In this document: piece by piece, positions 2,353 to 10,351 of the stretch
Layout of the letters: each line of letters starts with the position of its first letter
Numbering within the stretch: the stretch's first letter is position 1
NCBI RefSeq assembly: GCF_001661915.1
Contig: NZ_LYWY01000040.1
Location: 62,001-126,000 of the forward strand
Reading direction: 5' to 3'
Length of the DNA stretch: 64,000 bases
From: Croceicoccus pelagius
GTDB lineage: Bacteria; Pseudomonadota; Alphaproteobacteria; Sphingomonadales; Sphingomonadaceae
Notes under the pieces: model-generated
Database searches by the model: none
The model's input: only the letters and a program-made list of their open reading frames with translations
What the model was told of the DNA's origin: nothing
Made by a program: the position numbers and the translations under genes

Positions 2353-3579
2353 CTATCGTCTCGGCCCCTTGGGGAGCCCATCGCGCGTCAGATACGGGTT
2401 GCGCCGCGTAACCGCCAGTAGCAGCCCGACGGTAAGGCACAGCGCGATCATCGAGGAACCGCCGTAGGAAATCAGCGGCAGGGTCATGCCCTTGGACGGG
2501 AACAGTTGCAGGTTCACCGCCATGTTGATGAAGGCCTGCCCGCCAAGCAGCGCCGCAAGACCCGTACCGGCCAAAAGGGTGAACAGGTCGTCCTCCCCCG
2601 CAAGCCGCCACAGGACGCGAACAACCAATGCGCAAAACAGCAGGGCGATCCCGGCAACCGCGATCAGGCCGAATTCCTCGCCGATGACCGACAGGATATA
2701 GTCGGTATGCGCCTCGGGCAGGGCGTTCTTGCGTTCGCCCATCCACAGCCCCCGTCCGAACCAGCCCCCGTTGGTCAGCGTCTTGTTGGCAAGGTCGACC
2801 TGGCTGTACGCCTCCGTCCCGCCGAGGAAGTCGTCGATACGGCGGCGCGCGTTGTCATAGAAGAAGTAGGCCGCCACGATCAGAGCGACGATCCCGCCCA
2901 TCGCCCAGCCCACGCGCTGCAAAGGCAGGCCGACGGTGACGACCAGCACGAACCACACGCCGCACAGCAGCATCGCGGTGCCGAAGTCGGGCTGAAGCAT
3001 CAGCAGGCCGACCGACACCGCAAGCACCGCGCCCGAAAGGACCATGACCGGAAGCTGCGGATCGCGCACGCGCCACGACAGGATCCACGCCATCATGATC
3101 GTGAAGGCGGGCTTGTAGAATTCGGACGGCTGGAAGGATGCACCCAGCCTGATCCAGCGGCGCGCGCCGTTGATTTCAGAACCTACGAAGGGCACCGCGA
3201 TCAACAGGATGAACATTCCCGCCCCAAGCAGGATCGATAGCCTGCGCGCGGATTCGCGCGGCAGCAGGCTGGCCGCGAACATCGTGGCGATGCCCATGAC
3301 CAGCCAGGTCAGGTGCATCCAGAAAAAGTGCAGGTCCGACAGTTTCGTTTCCGCCGTCGACAGGCGATGCGCGCTGGCCGCGCTGCCCGCGGCGACGCCG
3401 ATGATACCCGCCGTCATCAACAGGGCGACGATGGACAGCAGGACCTTGTCGATCTCGCGCCACCAGACGGTGAGTTCGTGCCAGCGGCCATTGCGGCGGG
3501 TGGTCGAGCGGCGGGCGATATGGACGCCGCCCGCGCCGCTCTGGAAATTGCCGCCTTCGAATTGCGGAGCAAGGCTCAC
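2353..3579 (-). CDS. ftsW: Septal peptidoglycan polymerase FtsW
   Basis: FtsW is the SEDS-family glycosyltransferase that polymerises lipid II at the septum together with FtsI. The 408-residue product has about ten hydrophobic segments and family runs such as GARRWIRLG and QPSEFYKPA. It also has AHTDYILSVIGEEFG and the C-terminal ISYGGSS. The start is a GTG that shares GTGA with the murD stop; a GGGGGGAG ribosome site lies just upstream. An upstream ATG in the same frame lies inside murD and gives an implausible Arg-rich extension, so I rejected it. Confidence 0.95.
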   Translation of the reverse strand: MSLAPQFEGGNFQSGAGGVHIARRSTTRRNGRWHELTVWWREIDKVLLSIVALLMTAGIIGVAAGSAASAHRLSTAETKLSDLHFFWMHLTWLVMGIATMFAASLLPRESARRLSILLGAGMFILLIAVPFVGSEINGARRWIRLGASFQPSEFYKPAFTIMMAWILSWRVRDPQLPVMVLSGAVLAVSVGLLMLQPDFGTAMLLCGVWFVLVVTVGLPLQRVGWAMGGIVALIVAAYFFYDNARRRIDDFLGGTEAYSQVDLANKTLTNGGWFGRGLWMGERKNALPEAHTDYILSVIGEEFGLIAVAGIALLFCALVVRVLWRLAGEDDLFTLLAGTGLAALLGGQAFINMAVNLQLFPSKGMTLPLISYGGSSMIALCLTVGLLLAVTRRNPYLTRDGLPKGPRR

Positions 3580-4940
3580 GATGCGTCTCCCCCCAATGAC
3601 CGGACGATGCTGACAAAGGCCTCCCCGCGCTTTTCGTAGTCGCGGAACTGGTCGAAACTCGCACACGCGGGGCTGAGCAGGACGACATCGCCCTCACCCG
3701 CAGCGGCGGCAGCGGCGCACACCGCCTCTGCCATCAGTTCGGCACGTACGACTTTGGGCACGCGGCCGTCCAGAAGCTGCGCGAACATGGGCCCTGCCTC
3801 GCCAATGGTGTAGGCGGCCGCGACATTGCCAAGGTGCGGTTCGATTTCGGCAAGGCTGTCGCCTTTGGGCAAACCGCCGACGATCCAGTGCACGCGCGGC
3901 TTGCCGGCGATCGGCGGAAACGCGGCCAGCGCGGGGGCGGCGGAGGCGGGATTGGTCGCCTTGGAATCGTTGACGAACAGCGCGCCGCCGACAGTATCCA
4001 CCCGCTCCATCCGGTGCGGGAGACCGGGGAAGCTTTTCAGCCCCGCCTCGATCTGGTTGTCGGTCAGCCCCATGCGCCGCGCGGCGGCGACGGCGGCGGC
4101 TGAATTGCCCATGTTGTGGGGGCCTTGCAGCGCGGGCCAGTCGGCCTGGTTGCCGGGGATCGTCACGTCCTCGATCACCACGGGCGCGCGGCCATCAAGC
4201 GCGCGGGCGACGGGGCGGATCTGTTTAAGCGAGTGCCGGTCGACGATGGCAAGCCCGCGCCCGTGCTGCATCTCGAACAAACGGGCCTTCGACGCGGCAT
4301 AGCCGGGGAAGCCCTCGTCGTAGCGGTCGAGGTGATCGGGCGAAATATTCAGAAGGATCGCGATGTCGGCTTCAAGGCTGCGCGTCAGGTCGATCTGGTA
4401 GCTCGATAGTTCCAGCACATAGACCCCGCCCTCGGGCAGCGGCTCGGTACCCAGGATCGGAATACCGATGTTCCCGCCAAGCCGCGCCACGCGCCCCGCG
4501 TTTTCCAGCAGGTGGTGGATCAGCGCGGTCGTCGTCGACTTGCCGTTGGTGCCGGTGATGGCGACCACACCATGCGCGGGCAGCGCCTTGCGGGCCGCGG
4601 CGAACAGTTCGATGTCGCCGATCAGCGGTACGTTGGCGGTGCGCGCGATGTCGGCGATGGGGTGGCGGTTTATCGGCACGCCGGGCGATACGACGATGCC
4701 CTTGCAGCCCTTCACCGTTTCCGGCGTCAGTTCTGCGACGGTGCAGGCGCCGAGGGCATCGGCGAATATCGTCTCCGCCTCTTCGCGCGCGCTTTCGTTG
4801 CGGTCCCACGCCACGACGCTGGCGCCTGCGGCGCACAGCGCACGCACGGTGGCAAGCCCGCTGCGTGCCAGCCCGAGCACCGCGTAGCGCGATCCGTCGA
4901 AGATCGCGCGCGGCAGGATCGAGGCCGGCTGCCCGTTCAC
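3576..4940 (-). CDS. murD: UDP-N-acetylmuramoylalanine--D-glutamate ligase MurD
   Basis: MurD adds D-glutamate to UDP-MurNAc-L-Ala. The 454-residue protein has the family layout: an N-terminal uracil-binding domain ([10 protein letters not shown], about 21-30), the ATP loop GTNGKST at 130-136, the central run ISPDHLDRY, and a C-terminal domain with [11 protein letters not shown] and a late [12 protein letters not shown]. Its GTG start overlaps the mraY stop by GTGA, and its stop overlaps the ftsW start in the same way, so three genes in a row are coupled. Confidence 0.96.
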
Positions 4941-5998
4941 CGCAGTTTCAGCGTGGCAAGGCCGATCACCGCAAGCACGATGGCGACGATCCAGAAACGG
5001 ATCACGACAGTGCTCTCGGCCCAGCCCTTCTGTTCATAGTGGTGGTGGATCGGCGCCATGCGGAAGATGCGCCTGCCCGTCCGCTTGAACCAGAAGACCT
5101 GCACGATGACCGACACGGCTTCCAGCACGAAAAGCCCGCCGACGATGGCGAGCACGACTTCGTGGTGCGCGGCGACGGCGATCACGCCCAGCGCGCCGCC
5201 AAGGGCCAGCGAACCGGTATCGCCCATGAAGACGGCGGCGGGAGGTGCATTGAACCACAGGAAGGCAAGCCCCGCCCCGATGATCGCGGCGCACAGGATC
5301 GCCAGTTCGCCCGCGCCCTCGACATAAGGAATGCCCAGGTATTCGGCAAAGTCTGTGCGACCGACCAGATAGGCGATGATCGCGAAAGTGCCCGATGCGA
5401 TGATGACCGGCATGATCGCCAGCCCGTCGAGCCCGTCGGTCAGGTTCACGGCATTGCCCGCCCCTACGATCACGAAAGCGGCAAATACGTAATAGATTGG
5501 CCCCAGCGGGATGCCGAAAGTCATGAAGGGCAAATAGAGCGTGGTGTCATCGACCACGAGCCACGCGGCCAGCCCTGCAATCAGGAATTCGAAGAACAGG
5601 CGCACCTTGCCCGACAGGCCCTTGTGCGAACGCTTCGTCACCTTGTCGTAATCGTCCAGGAAACCGATCAGGCCGAAACCGACCGTCACCGCGATGCAGG
5701 CCCATACCATGAAGCTGGTAAGATCCATCCACAGCAGCATCGAGATCAACAGCGAGGTCATGATCAGCAAGCCCCCCATCGTGGGCGTACCGCGCTTGGC
5801 AAGGTGCGTCTGCGGGCCGTCGGCGCGGATCGGCTGGCCTTTGCCTTGGCTGACCCGAAGGTAACCGATGAAGCGAGGACCGATGATCATGCCGATGGTC
5901 AGCGCCGTCAGCAGGCAGGCGCCTGCGCGAAAGCTCTGGTAACGGACAAGGTTTGCCAGTCCCTCGAACTCGAAAAACTGGGCAAGCAGGTAAAGCAT
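4937..5998 (-). CDS. mraY: Phospho-N-acetylmuramoyl-pentapeptide transferase MraY
   Basis: MraY moves phospho-MurNAc-pentapeptide from UDP to undecaprenyl phosphate to form lipid I. It is a 353-residue multi-pass inner-membrane protein. Catalytic signatures are present: the Asp pair in [18 protein letters not shown], and the histidine-rich loop PIHHHYE. GAGGAG sits seven bases before the ATG. Unlike its neighbours it does not overlap the gene before it: 146 bp separate it from the MurF-like stop, so it may have its own promoter or depend on readthrough of a structured spacer. Confidence 0.96.
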
Positions 5999-6080
5999 CG
6001 GCGCTCCTCAGCGGTGCTCTGGACAATGGCGGGCGGGCGCGAAGCCCGAACCGGAAAACGCGTAGTCCTGCCATGCGCGA

Positions 6081-6108
6081 AGCGGCCCGCCTTGTGAAGC
6101 GGGCCGCT
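6081..6108 (-). other. Strong hairpin in the murF-like/mraY spacer
   Basis: The 146-bp gap 5999-6144 is the only sizeable break in the cluster. It holds a perfect 10-bp inverted repeat (AGCGGCCCGC and GCGGGCCGCT, 8-base loop). No T-run follows in the direction of transcription, so it does not look like a simple intrinsic terminator. It could be an RNA processing or stability element, or a scar. No coding sequence is recognisable in the gap. Confidence 0.6.
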
Positions 6109-6144
6109 GTTCATTTCCCCAGTGGGGCCGGGGAAACGGCGGCC

Positions 6145-7098
6145 TCAGACTGCGACCGTCCCGGGCAATGCACGGTCCGTCGAACCGGCGGATTGCAGCA
6201 CGAGCGCGGCGCATCCCATCGAGGCCCCTGCGGCACGCATCGCGCCGAACACGGCAAGCGAGGCGCAGGCGTCGCCGAAATGCTGGCCGAGCGAGAAGCA
6301 CATGCGCTGACCCATGATCTCTGCCGTTACCAGCCATCCACCGTCGAAACCGCCAACGGCATCGAGCAAGCAGATGTCGGCGCTGGCCTTGCGGCCATAG
6401 CCGAAAACCTGCGCGCCGGCATCGAGTGCTGCGGCGCGCCAGCAGGCGAAGTCGGGATGGTCGGCGGGAAGCACGGCGGCACCGCCCGACTGGAGCGCTG
6501 CGCCTGCGCGCATGCCCTCGGCCCGCGAAAGTTCGCGTCCGCCGACAAAGATATGCGGGCGAAGGCGTTCGATCGAGGCGCATTCGTCGATGTTGAAGAC
6601 CGCGTGGCTGCGATCGGCGGCAAGGCCCGAAAGCGCGGCATCAAGGCCGTCTGCCATGTTAGCCTTCAGCGCAAGACCGCGGCTTGCCATGTTGAGCGCG
6701 GTGAAGATGGAGCGGCCGACCGGCGTTCCGGCCATACCGGCATGCGCGACGATCGTGGCGCGGGCGCGCGACCGGGCGGCGCGGGCAAGGCGGGCCAGCG
6801 CCTCGTCGATGTCGGCGACCAGGATATGGGGACCGCGCACCGGGCGCGTAGTGACGACGCCGACCGCGCCGCGCGCAAGGGCGGCAACCGCGTCGACTTC
6901 GCCGCGCGCGAAATAGAGCGCGCCGGGTTCGACTTTCGCGGGACTCATCGCGATGGAATGGGCCGCGAAGTCGCCATGCGCTTCGCCGCCTGTGGACAGG
7001 GCGACCGTGTGGGCGCGCCACAAGGTGCGATAGGCGGTGCCGTCGCTTTCCTCGATGATGGCGCGGCGGGTGGCGGTAGGTACTGGCTGAGCGCTCAT
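6145..7098 (-). CDS. Truncated, degenerate MurF-like protein in the murF slot
   Basis: This gene occupies the position of murF between murE and mraY and overlaps murE by ATGA, but it does not look like a working ligase. It has 317 residues where MurF usually has about 450-480. The N-terminal UDP-substrate domain is recognisable (SPAKVEPGALYFARGEVDA, then HILVADIDEALARLA). Where the ATP loop GSxGKT should be it reads AGTPVGRSIF (about 123-132), with Lys replaced by Arg. The central-domain glutamate motif and the Asn-x-x-x-x-His motif are also not recognisable, and the C-terminal ligase domain is absent. No frame of the following gap restores that domain. It could be a pseudoenzyme that binds substrate or MurE/MraY, or a decaying gene. 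A complete murF must then lie outside this window. The frame is intact for over 950 bp, which favours an expressed protein. Confidence 0.8.
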   Translation of the reverse strand: MSAQPVPTATRRAIIEESDGTAYRTLWRAHTVALSTGGEAHGDFAAHSIAMSPAKVEPGALYFARGEVDAVAALARGAVGVVTTRPVRGPHILVADIDEALARLARAARSRARATIVAHAGMAGTPVGRSIFTALNMASRGLALKANMADGLDAALSGLAADRSHAVFNIDECASIERLRPHIFVGGRELSRAEGMRAGAALQSGGAAVLPADHPDFACWRAAALDAGAQVFGYGRKASADICLLDAVGGFDGGWLVTAEIMGQRMCFSLGQHFGDACASLAVFGAMRAAGASMGCAALVLQSAGSTDRALPGTVAV

Positions 7099-8570
7099 GC
7101 TGCACATTCCCTGGCTACGGTTACGTCGTCGAAAGGATGGACCCGGGCATTTTCCCCGCGTCCGATGATCTGCCCCTGTTCATGCCCCTTGCCGGCGAGG
7201 AGGACGATGTCGCCCCGGCCCGCCTGCTTTATCGCGGCGGCGATAGCGTCACGCCGGCCCGCAATTTCCGTGATGTTGTCCGCGTCGCCTGCCCCGGCGA
7301 CGATGGCTGCCCTGATGTCCGCAGGGTCTTCGCCGCGCGGGTTGTCGTCCGTCACGATGGCGACGTCCGAGTGGGCGGAAACGATCTCGCCCATGGGCGC
7401 GCGCTTGCCAGTGTCCCGGTCTCCGCCCGCGCCGAATACGGTGATGAGCCTGCCCTTCACATGCGGGCGCAACGCGAAGATCGCGGCCTCCAGCGCATCG
7501 GGCGTGTGGGCATAGTCGACATAGACCGGCGCGCCCGCGCGGTTGATCGCGGCACGTTCCAGACGCCCGCGCACCGGCTGAAGCCGGGAAAGCGCGTCGA
7601 ACACCTCTTTGGCGCCCGGCCCGGCCTCTTCCGCCGTCGCCAGCACGAGACCCGCCGCGACAAGCGCGTTCGCGGCCTGATAGGCCCCGATCAGCGGCAA
7701 GGAGACCTTGTATTGCTCTCCCATGAAGGAAAGCTTCAGCACCTGACCCAGCTCGGTCGGTGTGCGTTCGAGCAGGCGGATCCCGTAATCCGCGGCATCC
7801 GCCTGCTCGCCCACTTCGAACACGCGAAGACCCCGCCGTTTCGCATGTTCGCAGGCCGCGCCGGAGCGCGGATCATCCATCCAGATCACGGCCGATCCAC
7901 CATCCGAGACGACCTCGTCGAAGAGGCGCATCTTGGCGGCGAAATAGGCCTCCATGTCGGCGTGATAATCCAGATGGTCGCGGGAAAGGTTGGTGAAGGC
8001 GCCGGCTGCGACCTGAAGGCCTTCGTTGCGATACTGGGAAAGACCGTGGCTCGACGCTTCGTAGGCGACGTGGGTCACGCCTTCGCGCGCCAGGCCGGTC
8101 ATGTTCGAAAGGAACGTCACGATGTCGGGCGTGGTAAGTCCTGTCGAAACGCTCGCATCGGGCGTGGTGACGCCCAGCGTGCCGATGGACGCGGCGGAGT
8201 TGCCGCACATGCGCCAGATCTGACGGGTCATTTCGACCGTGCTGGTCTTGCCGTTGGTGCCGGTGACGGCCACCACGGTGCGCGGCGTGGGGGTGAAGAA
8301 CTGTGCGGCCAGCTTGGCAAAGGCGCGGCGCGGATCGGCATCGGCGATGTGGATCGCGCCCTCGACCTTCGCTGCGGGGCGTGCGACGACGGCGATCGCG
8401 CCGTCCTTTATGGCGGCAGGAATGAAATCCTCACCGTTCACCGTGCTGCCCTGAAACGCGCCGAACACGGTGCCGGGCGCGACCTTGCGGTTGTCGATGG
8501 CAAAGCCGGTGACATCGGCATCGCCCGATACGGTCAGGCCAGCGCGCTGAGAGAGGGTGGAAAGCTTCAT
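7095..8570 (-). CDS. murE: UDP-MurNAc-L-Ala-D-Glu--2,6-diaminopimelate ligase MurE
   Basis: MurE adds the third stem-peptide residue. The DNPR motif (in TDDNPRGEDP) is the signature of enzymes that add meso-diaminopimelate, as expected in a Gram-negative. The 491-residue protein has an N-terminal substrate domain, the ATP loop GTNGKTST at 104-111, NLSRDHLDYH in the central domain, and VDYAHTPDALE plus GAGGDRD in the C-terminal half. I used the ATG giving MKLSTLSQ, which overlaps the ftsI stop as TGATG; a longer in-frame start would run into ftsI. Confidence 0.96.
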   Translation of the reverse strand: MKLSTLSQRAGLTVSGDADVTGFAIDNRKVAPGTVFGAFQGSTVNGEDFIPAAIKDGAIAVVARPAAKVEGAIHIADADPRRAFAKLAAQFFTPTPRTVVAVTGTNGKTSTVEMTRQIWRMCGNSAASIGTLGVTTPDASVSTGLTTPDIVTFLSNMTGLAREGVTHVAYEASSHGLSQYRNEGLQVAAGAFTNLSRDHLDYHADMEAYFAAKMRLFDEVVSDGGSAVIWMDDPRSGAACEHAKRRGLRVFEVGEQADAADYGIRLLERTPTELGQVLKLSFMGEQYKVSLPLIGAYQAANALVAAGLVLATAEEAGPGAKEVFDALSRLQPVRGRLERAAINRAGAPVYVDYAHTPDALEAAIFALRPHVKGRLITVFGAGGDRDTGKRAPMGEIVSAHSDVAIVTDDNPRGEDPADIRAAIVAGAGDADNITEIAGRRDAIAAAIKQAGRGDIVLLAGKGHEQGQIIGRGENARVHPFDDVTVARECAA

Positions 8571-10351
8571 CAGTGCGCCCCACCCTTTTCGATCAGGGGG
8601 CGTACGTCGGACAGGTCGATCTCGCGGTTTTCGTCCGGATAGACACCCAGCATCGGGCCGATGCGCGGGACGATGCGGCCGACGGCGGCTGCCGCGTTCC
8701 ATGCGGCGGTACGCTGATAGCTTGTGGCCGCGGTGCCCTTGGGCTCGTCATACATCGTGATGACGACATAGCGCGGATTGTCCATCGGGAAGGCCGATGC
8801 GAACGTGGTGACAAGCGAAGTGCGCCTGTAGCCGCCTTCGCCCGGCTTTTCGGCCGAACCGGTCTTGCCGCCAAGTCGGAAGCCCGGCGCGTCAGCCTTG
8901 CGGCCCGTGCCGTCGGTGACGATCAGGCGCAGCAGCTGGCGCATGCGGGCGCTGGTCGATTCCTTGAAAACGCGTCGGCCTTCGGGGACTTCGTTCGGAG
9001 CCAGCTTCTTCAGCGTTGCCGGACGCCACACCCCACCATTGACCATCGCGGCATAGGCGCTGGCAAGATGCAGCGGGGTCACCGCGATGCCGTGGCCATA
9101 GGACACCGTCATCGTCGTCAGGCGCGGCCATTCGCCGCTGCGCCAGATCGGGAAACCGCGGGCGGGCAGTTCGATATAGGGACGTTCGTTGAAGCCGAGC
9201 CGCTCCATCGTCGCCTTCATCCGCTTGCTGCCCAGTTCGTCGGCGATCTGCGCCGTGCCGATGTTGGACGAGTGAATCAGGATTTCGGGAACGTTGATGT
9301 TCTGGCCGATGGTGTGGCTGTCGCGAATGCGGAACCGACCCACCTGCAGCGGCTTGCCGGCGGGGTAGGTCTTGGCAAGGTTGGTCACCACGCCTGCATC
9401 GATCGCGGCGGCAACGGCCAGCGGCTTGAACGTCGAACCGAGTTCGTAGACCTGGTTGGTCACCCGGTTGAACATCAGCTCCATGCCCTTTTCGTCGATG
9501 TGATTGGGATCGAAGCTGGGCAGCGAGGCAAGCGCGACGACTTCGCCGGTATCGACATCGAGCACGATGCCGCCTGCGCCCTTGGCCTGCGAAAGGCCCA
9601 TACCGCGCAGCAGTTCGTCTTCAAGCGCGGCCTGAACGCGCGAATCGATGGCAAGAACCTGTTCGGTGCCGCGGGTCGACGGGTCGGTGAGCGAGGTGTT
9701 GAACACCTCTTCCATGCCGACGCGGCCCTTCCCGTCCGCCCCGACATAACCGAGGACGTGGGCGGCAAGGTTGCCTTCGGGGTAATAGCGGCTGGGCTCG
9801 GCAGGGGGCGACAGGGCCGGTTCGCCGATCTCGAAGACGCGGTTCGCCTCTTCAGGTAGGATGCGGCGGCGCAAGTACTGGCCCTTGCCCGATGCAAGGC
9901 GTTTTTCCAGGTCCGCCTCGTCCATGTCGGGGAAGATCGCAACCAGCTTCTTCGCCACTTCGCGCGGAGACCGGGTCAGCGGGTCGCCGCCTTCCATCGC
10001 CTTGGGATTGAACCACAGGGCATAGGACTTGAAGTCGCGGGCCAGCGGCACGCCGTTGCGATCGACGATCATGCCGCGATCGGGCAGCAGCGCGTCACCA
10101 GCCGGCGTCAGCCCGCCCGAACCGCCGAAGACGCCCATCATCGCGACGCGCAGCACCAGGACGGCGGTCGCCAGCGCAAAGACGAAAGCGATCAGCGCGA
10201 CGCGCTTGCGCGCCATCGTCAGGGTAGAAGCGCGAAGATCCGCACGGCGCCCGGGCGATGCCTGGGATGCCTGCGGAGTTGCCTGCCGTGCGCGGTGCCG
10301 GTGGGCGGGCCCGGTCAGGCCCTGGGCCGTTCCGAGCGGTATCGATGCCAT
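8570..10351 (-). CDS. ftsI: Septal transpeptidase FtsI (penicillin-binding protein 3)
   Basis: FtsI cross-links septal peptidoglycan with FtsW. The 593-residue protein has a cytoplasmic N-terminus of about 50 residues rich in Arg, one membrane anchor (about 50-70), a PBP dimerisation domain, and a transpeptidase domain with all three active-site motifs: STFK at 306-309 (nucleophile Ser), SSN at 361-363, and KTGS at 496-499. The start overlaps the ftsL stop as TAATG. Confidence 0.95.
   Translation of the reverse strand: MASIPLGTAQGLTGPAHRHRARQATPQASQASPGRRADLRASTLTMARKRVALIAFVFALATAVLVLRVAMMGVFGGSGGLTPAGDALLPDRGMIVDRNGVPLARDFKSYALWFNPKAMEGGDPLTRSPREVAKKLVAIFPDMDEADLEKRLASGKGQYLRRRILPEEANRVFEIGEPALSPPAEPSRYYPEGNLAAHVLGYVGADGKGRVGMEEVFNTSLTDPSTRGTEQVLAIDSRVQAALEDELLRGMGLSQAKGAGGIVLDVDTGEVVALASLPSFDPNHIDEKGMELMFNRVTNQVYELGSTFKPLAVAAAIDAGVVTNLAKTYPAGKPLQVGRFRIRDSHTIGQNINVPEILIHSSNIGTAQIADELGSKRMKATMERLGFNERPYIELPARGFPIWRSGEWPRLTTMTVSYGHGIAVTPLHLASAYAAMVNGGVWRPATLKKLAPNEVPEGRRVFKESTSARMRQLLRLIVTDGTGRKADAPGFRLGGKTGSAEKPGEGGYRRTSLVTTFASAFPMDNPRYVVITMYDEPKGTAATSYQRTAAWNAAAAVGRIVPRIGPMLGVYPDENREIDLSDVRPLIEKGGAH

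Follow-up and report, generated by a model that had tools for sequence, protein, structure and literature searches.

An apparent MurF pseudoenzyme in the dcw cluster of Croceicoccus and a candidate membrane-bound ligase for the MurF step

Introduction

In the dcw cluster of Croceicoccus, the gene that occupies the murF slot (here called murF') appears to encode a dead pseudoenzyme. An integral-membrane MurF-like ligase, whose gene shares a cassette with those of an alpha/beta hydrolase and a Ddl-like protein, now seems to carry out the MurF reaction, and murF' is guessed to act as a partner protein. A probability of about 0.64 is assigned to this combined reading. Peptidoglycan synthesis is generally taken to depend on MurF as a single, soluble and essential enzyme, which is also viewed as a drug target. 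A literature search, in which coverage of subscription journals was mostly lacking, returned no description of a membrane MurF or of a MurF pseudoenzyme. A dead MurF under selection offers a natural test of whether Mur ligases, beside catalysis, also serve as structural members of a cytoplasmic Mur complex.

The murF slot of the dcw cluster

The window, i.e. the whole stretch of 64,000 nucleotides that was analysed (G000:C34:62001-126000), belongs to a draft assembly of 40 contigs. The features used below are as follows.

3576..4940, minus strand: murD, with Mur ligase M and C domains and a MurD-like N domain
4937..5998, minus strand: mraY, with Glycos_transf_4 and the MraY signature
5999..6144, minus strand: murF'-mraY spacer, 146 nt, with two GC-rich stem-loops
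6145..7098, minus strand: murF', a degenerate MurF of 317 aa and apparent pseudoenzyme in the murF slot, identified from ORF listing, family profiles, motifs and fold
6709..6738, minus strand: former P-loop, now GMAGTPVGRS, residues 121-130 of murF', from sequence and alignment
6769..7023, minus strand: remnant of MurF domain 1, residues 26-110 of murF', DSR and DGH motifs lost
7095..8573, minus strand: murE, its start taken at MKLSTLSQ (the listed ORF extends to 8702)
G000:C32:247054-248673, minus strand, outside the window: integral-membrane MurF-like ligase, 540 aa, the best TIGR01143 match in the same genome
L069:8671-9570: alpha/beta hydrolase of the cassette

On the minus strand the dcw genes run in the order ftsI-like, murE, murF', mraY, murD, ftsW-like and murG; the names ftsI, ftsW and murG were assigned from position and characteristic motifs. 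murF' is contained in the ORF 6145-7107, with the ATG at 7098 as its likely start, and this start overlaps the murE stop (7095-7097) as ATGA. The same overlap is present at 14/14 Croceicoccus loci. The open frame and the coupling to murE, which had been described in the earlier note for this one gene, thus hold for all of them. The spacer between murF' and mraY is too short for a MurF C-terminal domain. Folding of the spacer gave -73.4 kcal/mol (z -2.9) with two strong stem-loops, and similar inverted repeats are visible by eye in the nearest relatives. A terminator scan of the spacer returned one site, on the plus strand only and not above chance.

Loss of the catalytic motifs

A Pfam search of murF' returned no family. 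The NCBIfam matches were weak, with NF010693 at 54.5 bits against a cut-off of 544 and TIGR01143 at 28.6 bits against 288.6, the latter over domain 1 only. The motifs of the 14 Croceicoccus murF' proteins were compared with those of 16 full-length MurFs from 16 other genera of the family (of 22 such genomes). The P-loop GxxGK[TS], the A[PS]AH of the central domain, the NPxS of the C-terminal domain and the DGH of domain 1 were each found in 16/16 full-length MurFs and in 0/14 murF' proteins. The D[ST]R pattern, likewise present in 16/16 full-length MurFs, occurs in four of the 14 murF' proteins, in all four off the aligned place (residues 9, 15, 15 and 83). About 13 residues around A[PS]AH are deleted in Croceicoccus murF', the C-domain is absent, and the protein, 315-345 aa long in 14/14, ends at the boundary of the central and C-terminal domains. 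The losses reported in the earlier note (ATP-loop lysine, central motifs, C-terminal domain) are therefore borne out in every Croceicoccus protein, and the motifs of domain 1 have to be added to them.

Structure prediction, which took in the murF' of the window and five relatives, gave the fold of MurF domains 1 and 2 with a mean pLDDT of 78.5; models 3-5 of the five were poor (36-51). The best PDB match of the predicted model was P. aeruginosa MurF 4cvl (Foldseek E 1e-18; TM-score 0.69 by query length), and the 10 best matches were MurF or MurE-MurF. By its predicted fold, murF' is a homologue of MurF made up of domain 1 and the central domain. It resembles canonical MurF (TIGR01143 / NF010693; structures 4cvk-4cvm and 1gg4) in this predicted fold and in its slot behind murE, whereas it is without the tested catalytic motifs and the C-domain. 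These losses indicate that murF' is almost certainly devoid of MurF catalysis.

Retention of murF' in Croceicoccus

murF' was found in all 14 Croceicoccus genomes examined, one per species, at 54-100% identity. Its closest named relatives are those of C. gelatinilyticus (97%), C. sediminis (92%), C. ponticola (79%) and C. bisphenolivorans (75%), which NCBI taxonomy places in Erythrobacteraceae, Sphingomonadales. A new N-terminal stretch of the protein, PVPxxTR, is invariant in the alignment of the 14.

Pairwise omega values (YN00; pairs that gave a value, which the most distant ones did not) were 0.036-0.278 for murF', 0.047-0.127 for murE and 0.007-0.058 for mraY. Among the 15 pairs with values for both genes, omega of murF' exceeded that of murE in 11 and was the smaller of the two in 4, which indicates that murF' is constrained, but mostly less than murE. 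With NG86 and bootstrap, four Croceicoccus murF' pairs gave 0.077 (0.048-0.108), 0.168 (0.115-0.231), 0.112 (0.062-0.163) and 0.244 (0.162-0.352). Omega was lower for domain 1 than for the central part in three of the pairs, and the order was reversed in the fourth (0.349 vs 0.160). Conservation of the degenerate state in relatives and purifying selection on it, both of which the earlier note had proposed to look for, were thus found (14/14; omega 0.08-0.24). Retention of murF' by selection is very probable on these values. With its catalytic residues lost and the protein retained by selection, murF' qualifies, on its sequence, as a pseudoenzyme.

A membrane-bound MurF-like ligase

The earlier note had left a choice between a pseudoenzyme and a decayed murF with a second copy elsewhere, and had expected a full-length murF with GSxGKT in the rest of the genome. 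A TIGR01143 search of the genome of the window returned no full-length MurF. The conserved pseudoenzyme under selection and the need for another gene are upheld, but not a second ordinary MurF. A candidate for the functional copy was found, but it is a membrane MurF-like ligase without domain 1.

A full-length MurF is present in only 1/14 Croceicoccus genomes (G006), on a foreign contig. This contig, G006:C14 (L075), carries a second murE-murF-mraY-murD set. Its MurE is 47% identical to that of the window, against 63-85% for the other loci compared, and its GC is 0.61 against 0.68 at the own dcw locus of G006. On the basis of GC and MurE identity, the intact murF of G006 was rejected as a Croceicoccus MurF. 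A set of this kind would deceive a presence/absence scan.

The membrane ligase of the window's genome matches TIGR01143 over model positions 64-402 with 198 bits (cut-off 288.6). It contains Mur_ligase_M and Mur_ligase_C, and its P-loop reads GSFGKT (GS[FY]GKT in the 22 aligned sequences). Where domain 1 would be, residues 5-140 contain four hydrophobic segments. With a profile of 22 membrane-ligase relatives, the best PDB match was MurF (E 2.5e-51), over the M and C domains only. The protein therefore resembles canonical MurF in its P-loop and its MurF-type central and C domains, and differs from it in that domain 1 is replaced by hydrophobic helices and the curated score is not reached. All 22 of these sequences carry the motif QQEEY directly behind the first hydrophobic segment; some f110 relatives among the matches listed have QQDDY instead.

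The ligase is present in 14/14 Croceicoccus genomes at 71-100% identity (split over two contigs in G012), while no match covering its N-terminal part was obtained in the 22 other genera sampled from the family. It was found in 31/297 genomes of a sample of the order and in 16/389 of a sample of the class, G000 being in both. A tree built from 26 membrane ligases and 4 canonical MurFs separates the former from the latter by a branch with 100/100 and groups the 6 Croceicoccus rows together (99/100); most of the deeper order is not settled.

In 38/62 of the genomes carrying it (14 Croceicoccus, with G006 taken without its foreign contig, and 24/48 others), the membrane ligase is the sole candidate detected for the MurF step. 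The failure to detect an intact-looking soluble MurF in these 38 points to a membrane-bound substitute. In Croceicoccus the ligase probably performs the MurF step. Against replacement, the ligase has no domain 1 with which it would bind UDP-MurNAc-tripeptide, and it scores below the MurF cut-off. Moreover, 24/48 genomes outside Croceicoccus have both the ligase and a full-length MurF, so that the substrate of the ligase could differ from that of MurF.

The murF slot in other genomes with the membrane ligase

tblastn and ORF listing were used to assign the state of the slot. The 48 non-Croceicoccus genomes with the membrane ligase comprise 24 with a full-length MurF and 24 without an intact-looking one. 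The full-length MurFs, 13 in one set and 11 in another (nine exceed the cut-off; those of G069 and G493 fall short of it but have full length), were called without motif reading. In 12 of the 24 genomes without an intact-looking MurF the slot is deleted (G040, G063, G075, G081, G084, G098, G101, G354, G369, G416, G494 and G502); in G040 (2 contigs, completeness 100) murE overlaps mraY directly. A degenerate MurF fills the slot in 8/24 (G072, G095, G093, G105, G363, G564, G620 and the contig-cut G047), and a small C-domain-like relic in 2/24 (G504 and G669); in 2/24 (G338 and G711) the state is not settled. These deleted, degenerate and relic slots show that loss or decay of soluble MurF has recurred in lineages that carry the membrane ligase. 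Full-length, degenerate and deleted murF states all occur within the genus g27.

None of the seven complete degenerate MurFs outside Croceicoccus has a P-loop, A[PS]AH or NPxS; the D[ST]R pattern was seen in G105 and DGH in G363. Those of G072 and G095, a pair from another genus (g91), keep all three domains in length. This pair (L105:147-1565 and L110:150-1568), without P-loop and NPxS and with an omega of 0.051, constitutes a second retained dead MurF.

The relics of G504 and G669 are proteins of about 150 aa (L121:9474-9932 and L124:2039-2497), for which Pfam and NCBIfam gave no match of note. They match the C-terminal part of the G564 and G620 degenerate MurFs at 38-41%, and in one of two f110 pseudo-MurFs this C-terminal part gives a weak NF010693 alignment to the C-domain of MurF. 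The view that this C-terminus is an unrelated fused domain was dropped on these two grounds; it is probably a relic of the C-domain.

In the class sample (389 genomes), a MurF over the cut-off was found in 2/16 genomes with the ligase vs 355/373 without it (Fisher p 3e-15, kinship not corrected). The 18 of 373 without a MurF over the cut-off comprise 12 with no match at 1e-60, five of them from one genus with genomes of 0.9-1.0 Mb, and six with a match below the cut-off. The contrast is weaker in the order sample, where 18/31 ligase genomes also have a full-length MurF.

Possible role of murF'

The link between murF' and murE has a counterpart in G363 (L138, G363:C246:13400-19800; an assembly of 290 contigs), where MurE (residues 1-475) and a degenerate MurF (from residue 499) are fused in frame within one ORF of 803 aa. 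Another Mur-ligase relative, the MurE-like plastid protein PAP11, has a role that we take to be non-catalytic. As a subunit of the plastid RNA polymerase (8r6s), PAP11 is similar to murF' in that the Mur-ligase fold would be reused in a complex; PAP11 is MurE-like, whereas murF' is MurF-like. The Bordetella MurE-MurF is reported to be a fused, active, MurG-binding protein (PMC6420597). It is comparable (structure 8f5d) in that MurE and MurF are linked, by start/stop overlap in the window and by fusion in G363. MurF is reported to be active in Bordetella, whereas the MurF partner of the window is without the motifs.

Taken together, the start of murF' on the murE stop, the G363 fusion and the Bordetella protein make a partner or scaffold beside MurE the simplest guess. 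A role of murF' as partner or scaffold, for MurE or for the membrane enzymes, is accordingly slightly favoured. The dead MurF joined to MurE in G363 fits a scaffold or regulator as well as a partner. The two-domain body of murF' might still dock on MurE, and perhaps on MraY, MurG or the membrane ligase, and the docked protein might help to pass UDP-MurNAc-tripeptide to the membrane; murF' may have been retained for such a non-catalytic task. A partner would not be generally needed, since the slot is devoid of murF in 12/24 genomes that apparently depend on the membrane ligase. A substrate carrier, as put forward in the earlier note, has become less plausible because DSR and DGH of domain 1 are absent at the aligned places in 14/14.

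The main rival to the partner role is that murF' is a relic on its way out, decaying slowly after takeover by the ligase and headed for deletion, with its conservation incidental or serving translation coupling in the operon only. The empty slot in the 12/24 non-Croceicoccus genomes, the coexistence of all three murF states in g27 and the weaker constraint on murF' than on murE in 11/15 pairs agree with such decay. However, omega is well below 1 in the four Croceicoccus pairs and in the g91 pair (upper bootstrap limits <=0.352), the open frame, length and start are kept in 14/14 genomes, and a role in cis alone would leave the amino acids unconstrained. A relic is therefore possible, but unlikely.

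Considerably less probable is a split enzyme, with murF' lending domain 1 for substrate binding in trans to the membrane ligase. In domain content the two proteins complement each other, and domain 1 is under tighter constraint than the central part in 3/4 Croceicoccus pairs; yet this domain is the one that has lost DSR and DGH from their aligned places in 14/14, and 12 genomes keep the membrane ligase with no murF in the slot.

Two further explanations had been foreseen in the earlier note, namely that the short form is an ordinary active MurF and that a frameshift or sequencing error conceals a normal one. An active divergent ligase with an unrecognised nucleotide site would accord with the gene position, the murE coupling and the conservation, but with P-loop, APAH and C-domain gone in 14/14 it is hardly credible. 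An artefact, with the normal murF missing only from the 40-contig draft, was rejected as the least probable of all, since the identical truncated state is common to 14/14 genomes, one per species, including the single-contig or 3-contig assemblies G003, G005, G007 and G010.

The Ddl and the hydrolase beside the membrane ligase

Sixteen membrane-ligase neighbourhoods with 9 family labels were compared. The alpha/beta hydrolase adjoins the ligase in 15/16 (the exception is L124), and Ddl is present in 12/16, some of the four without it being cut by the end of the stretch. In 12/12 neighbourhoods with both, the hydrolase lies between Ddl and the ligase. A ddl-like gene was found at <=6 kb from the membrane ligase in 44/50 genomes (exceptions G363, G416, G493, G494, G504 and G711). 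A single Ddl was detected at E 1e-20 in 44/50 ligase genomes, and more than one in G040, G041, G084, G098, G363 and G504. Each of the 14 Croceicoccus genomes has one Ddl match, beside the membrane ligase. In the 14 kb of dcw downstream of murG no Ddl was found in the genome of the window or in G005, while in the dcw region of G014 this search does recover one. In the family relatives G014, G015 and G027, a Ddl over the cut-off lies near the dcw MurF.

The cassette Ddl of the window's genome matches the whole TIGR01205 model at 211.3 bits, below the cut-off of 245.65. It resembles the Ddl of that model in the full-length match and in the omega-loop K-Y; it differs in its score, in lying outside the dcw cluster and in standing beside a hydrolase and a membrane MurF-like gene. 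The K-Y pair, which we take to denote D-Ala as the second substrate, is present in the 11 neighbourhoods (of 12 scanned) in which a Ddl was picked up by the pattern.

The replacement of MurF by the membrane ligase may have proceeded as follows. The cassette would have arrived in the ancestor of Croceicoccus; the dcw ddl would then have been lost, and afterwards murF would have lost catalysis. The membrane ligase and its Ddl would most likely make and add D-Ala-D-Ala, and this would account for the loss of the dcw ddl and for the decay of murF. More tentatively, Ddl, alpha/beta hydrolase and membrane MurF may form an alternative module for the end of the stem peptide. The membrane would then be the site of D-Ala-D-Ala addition, with lipid-linked MurNAc-tripeptide after the MraY step, in place of the soluble UDP-precursor, as a possible substrate, and the soluble MurF would be freed, several times independently, for loss or for a role as MurE partner; this proposal is doubtful. 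The nucleophile elbow of the hydrolase reads GHSFG in the six neighbourhoods where the pattern found the hydrolase.
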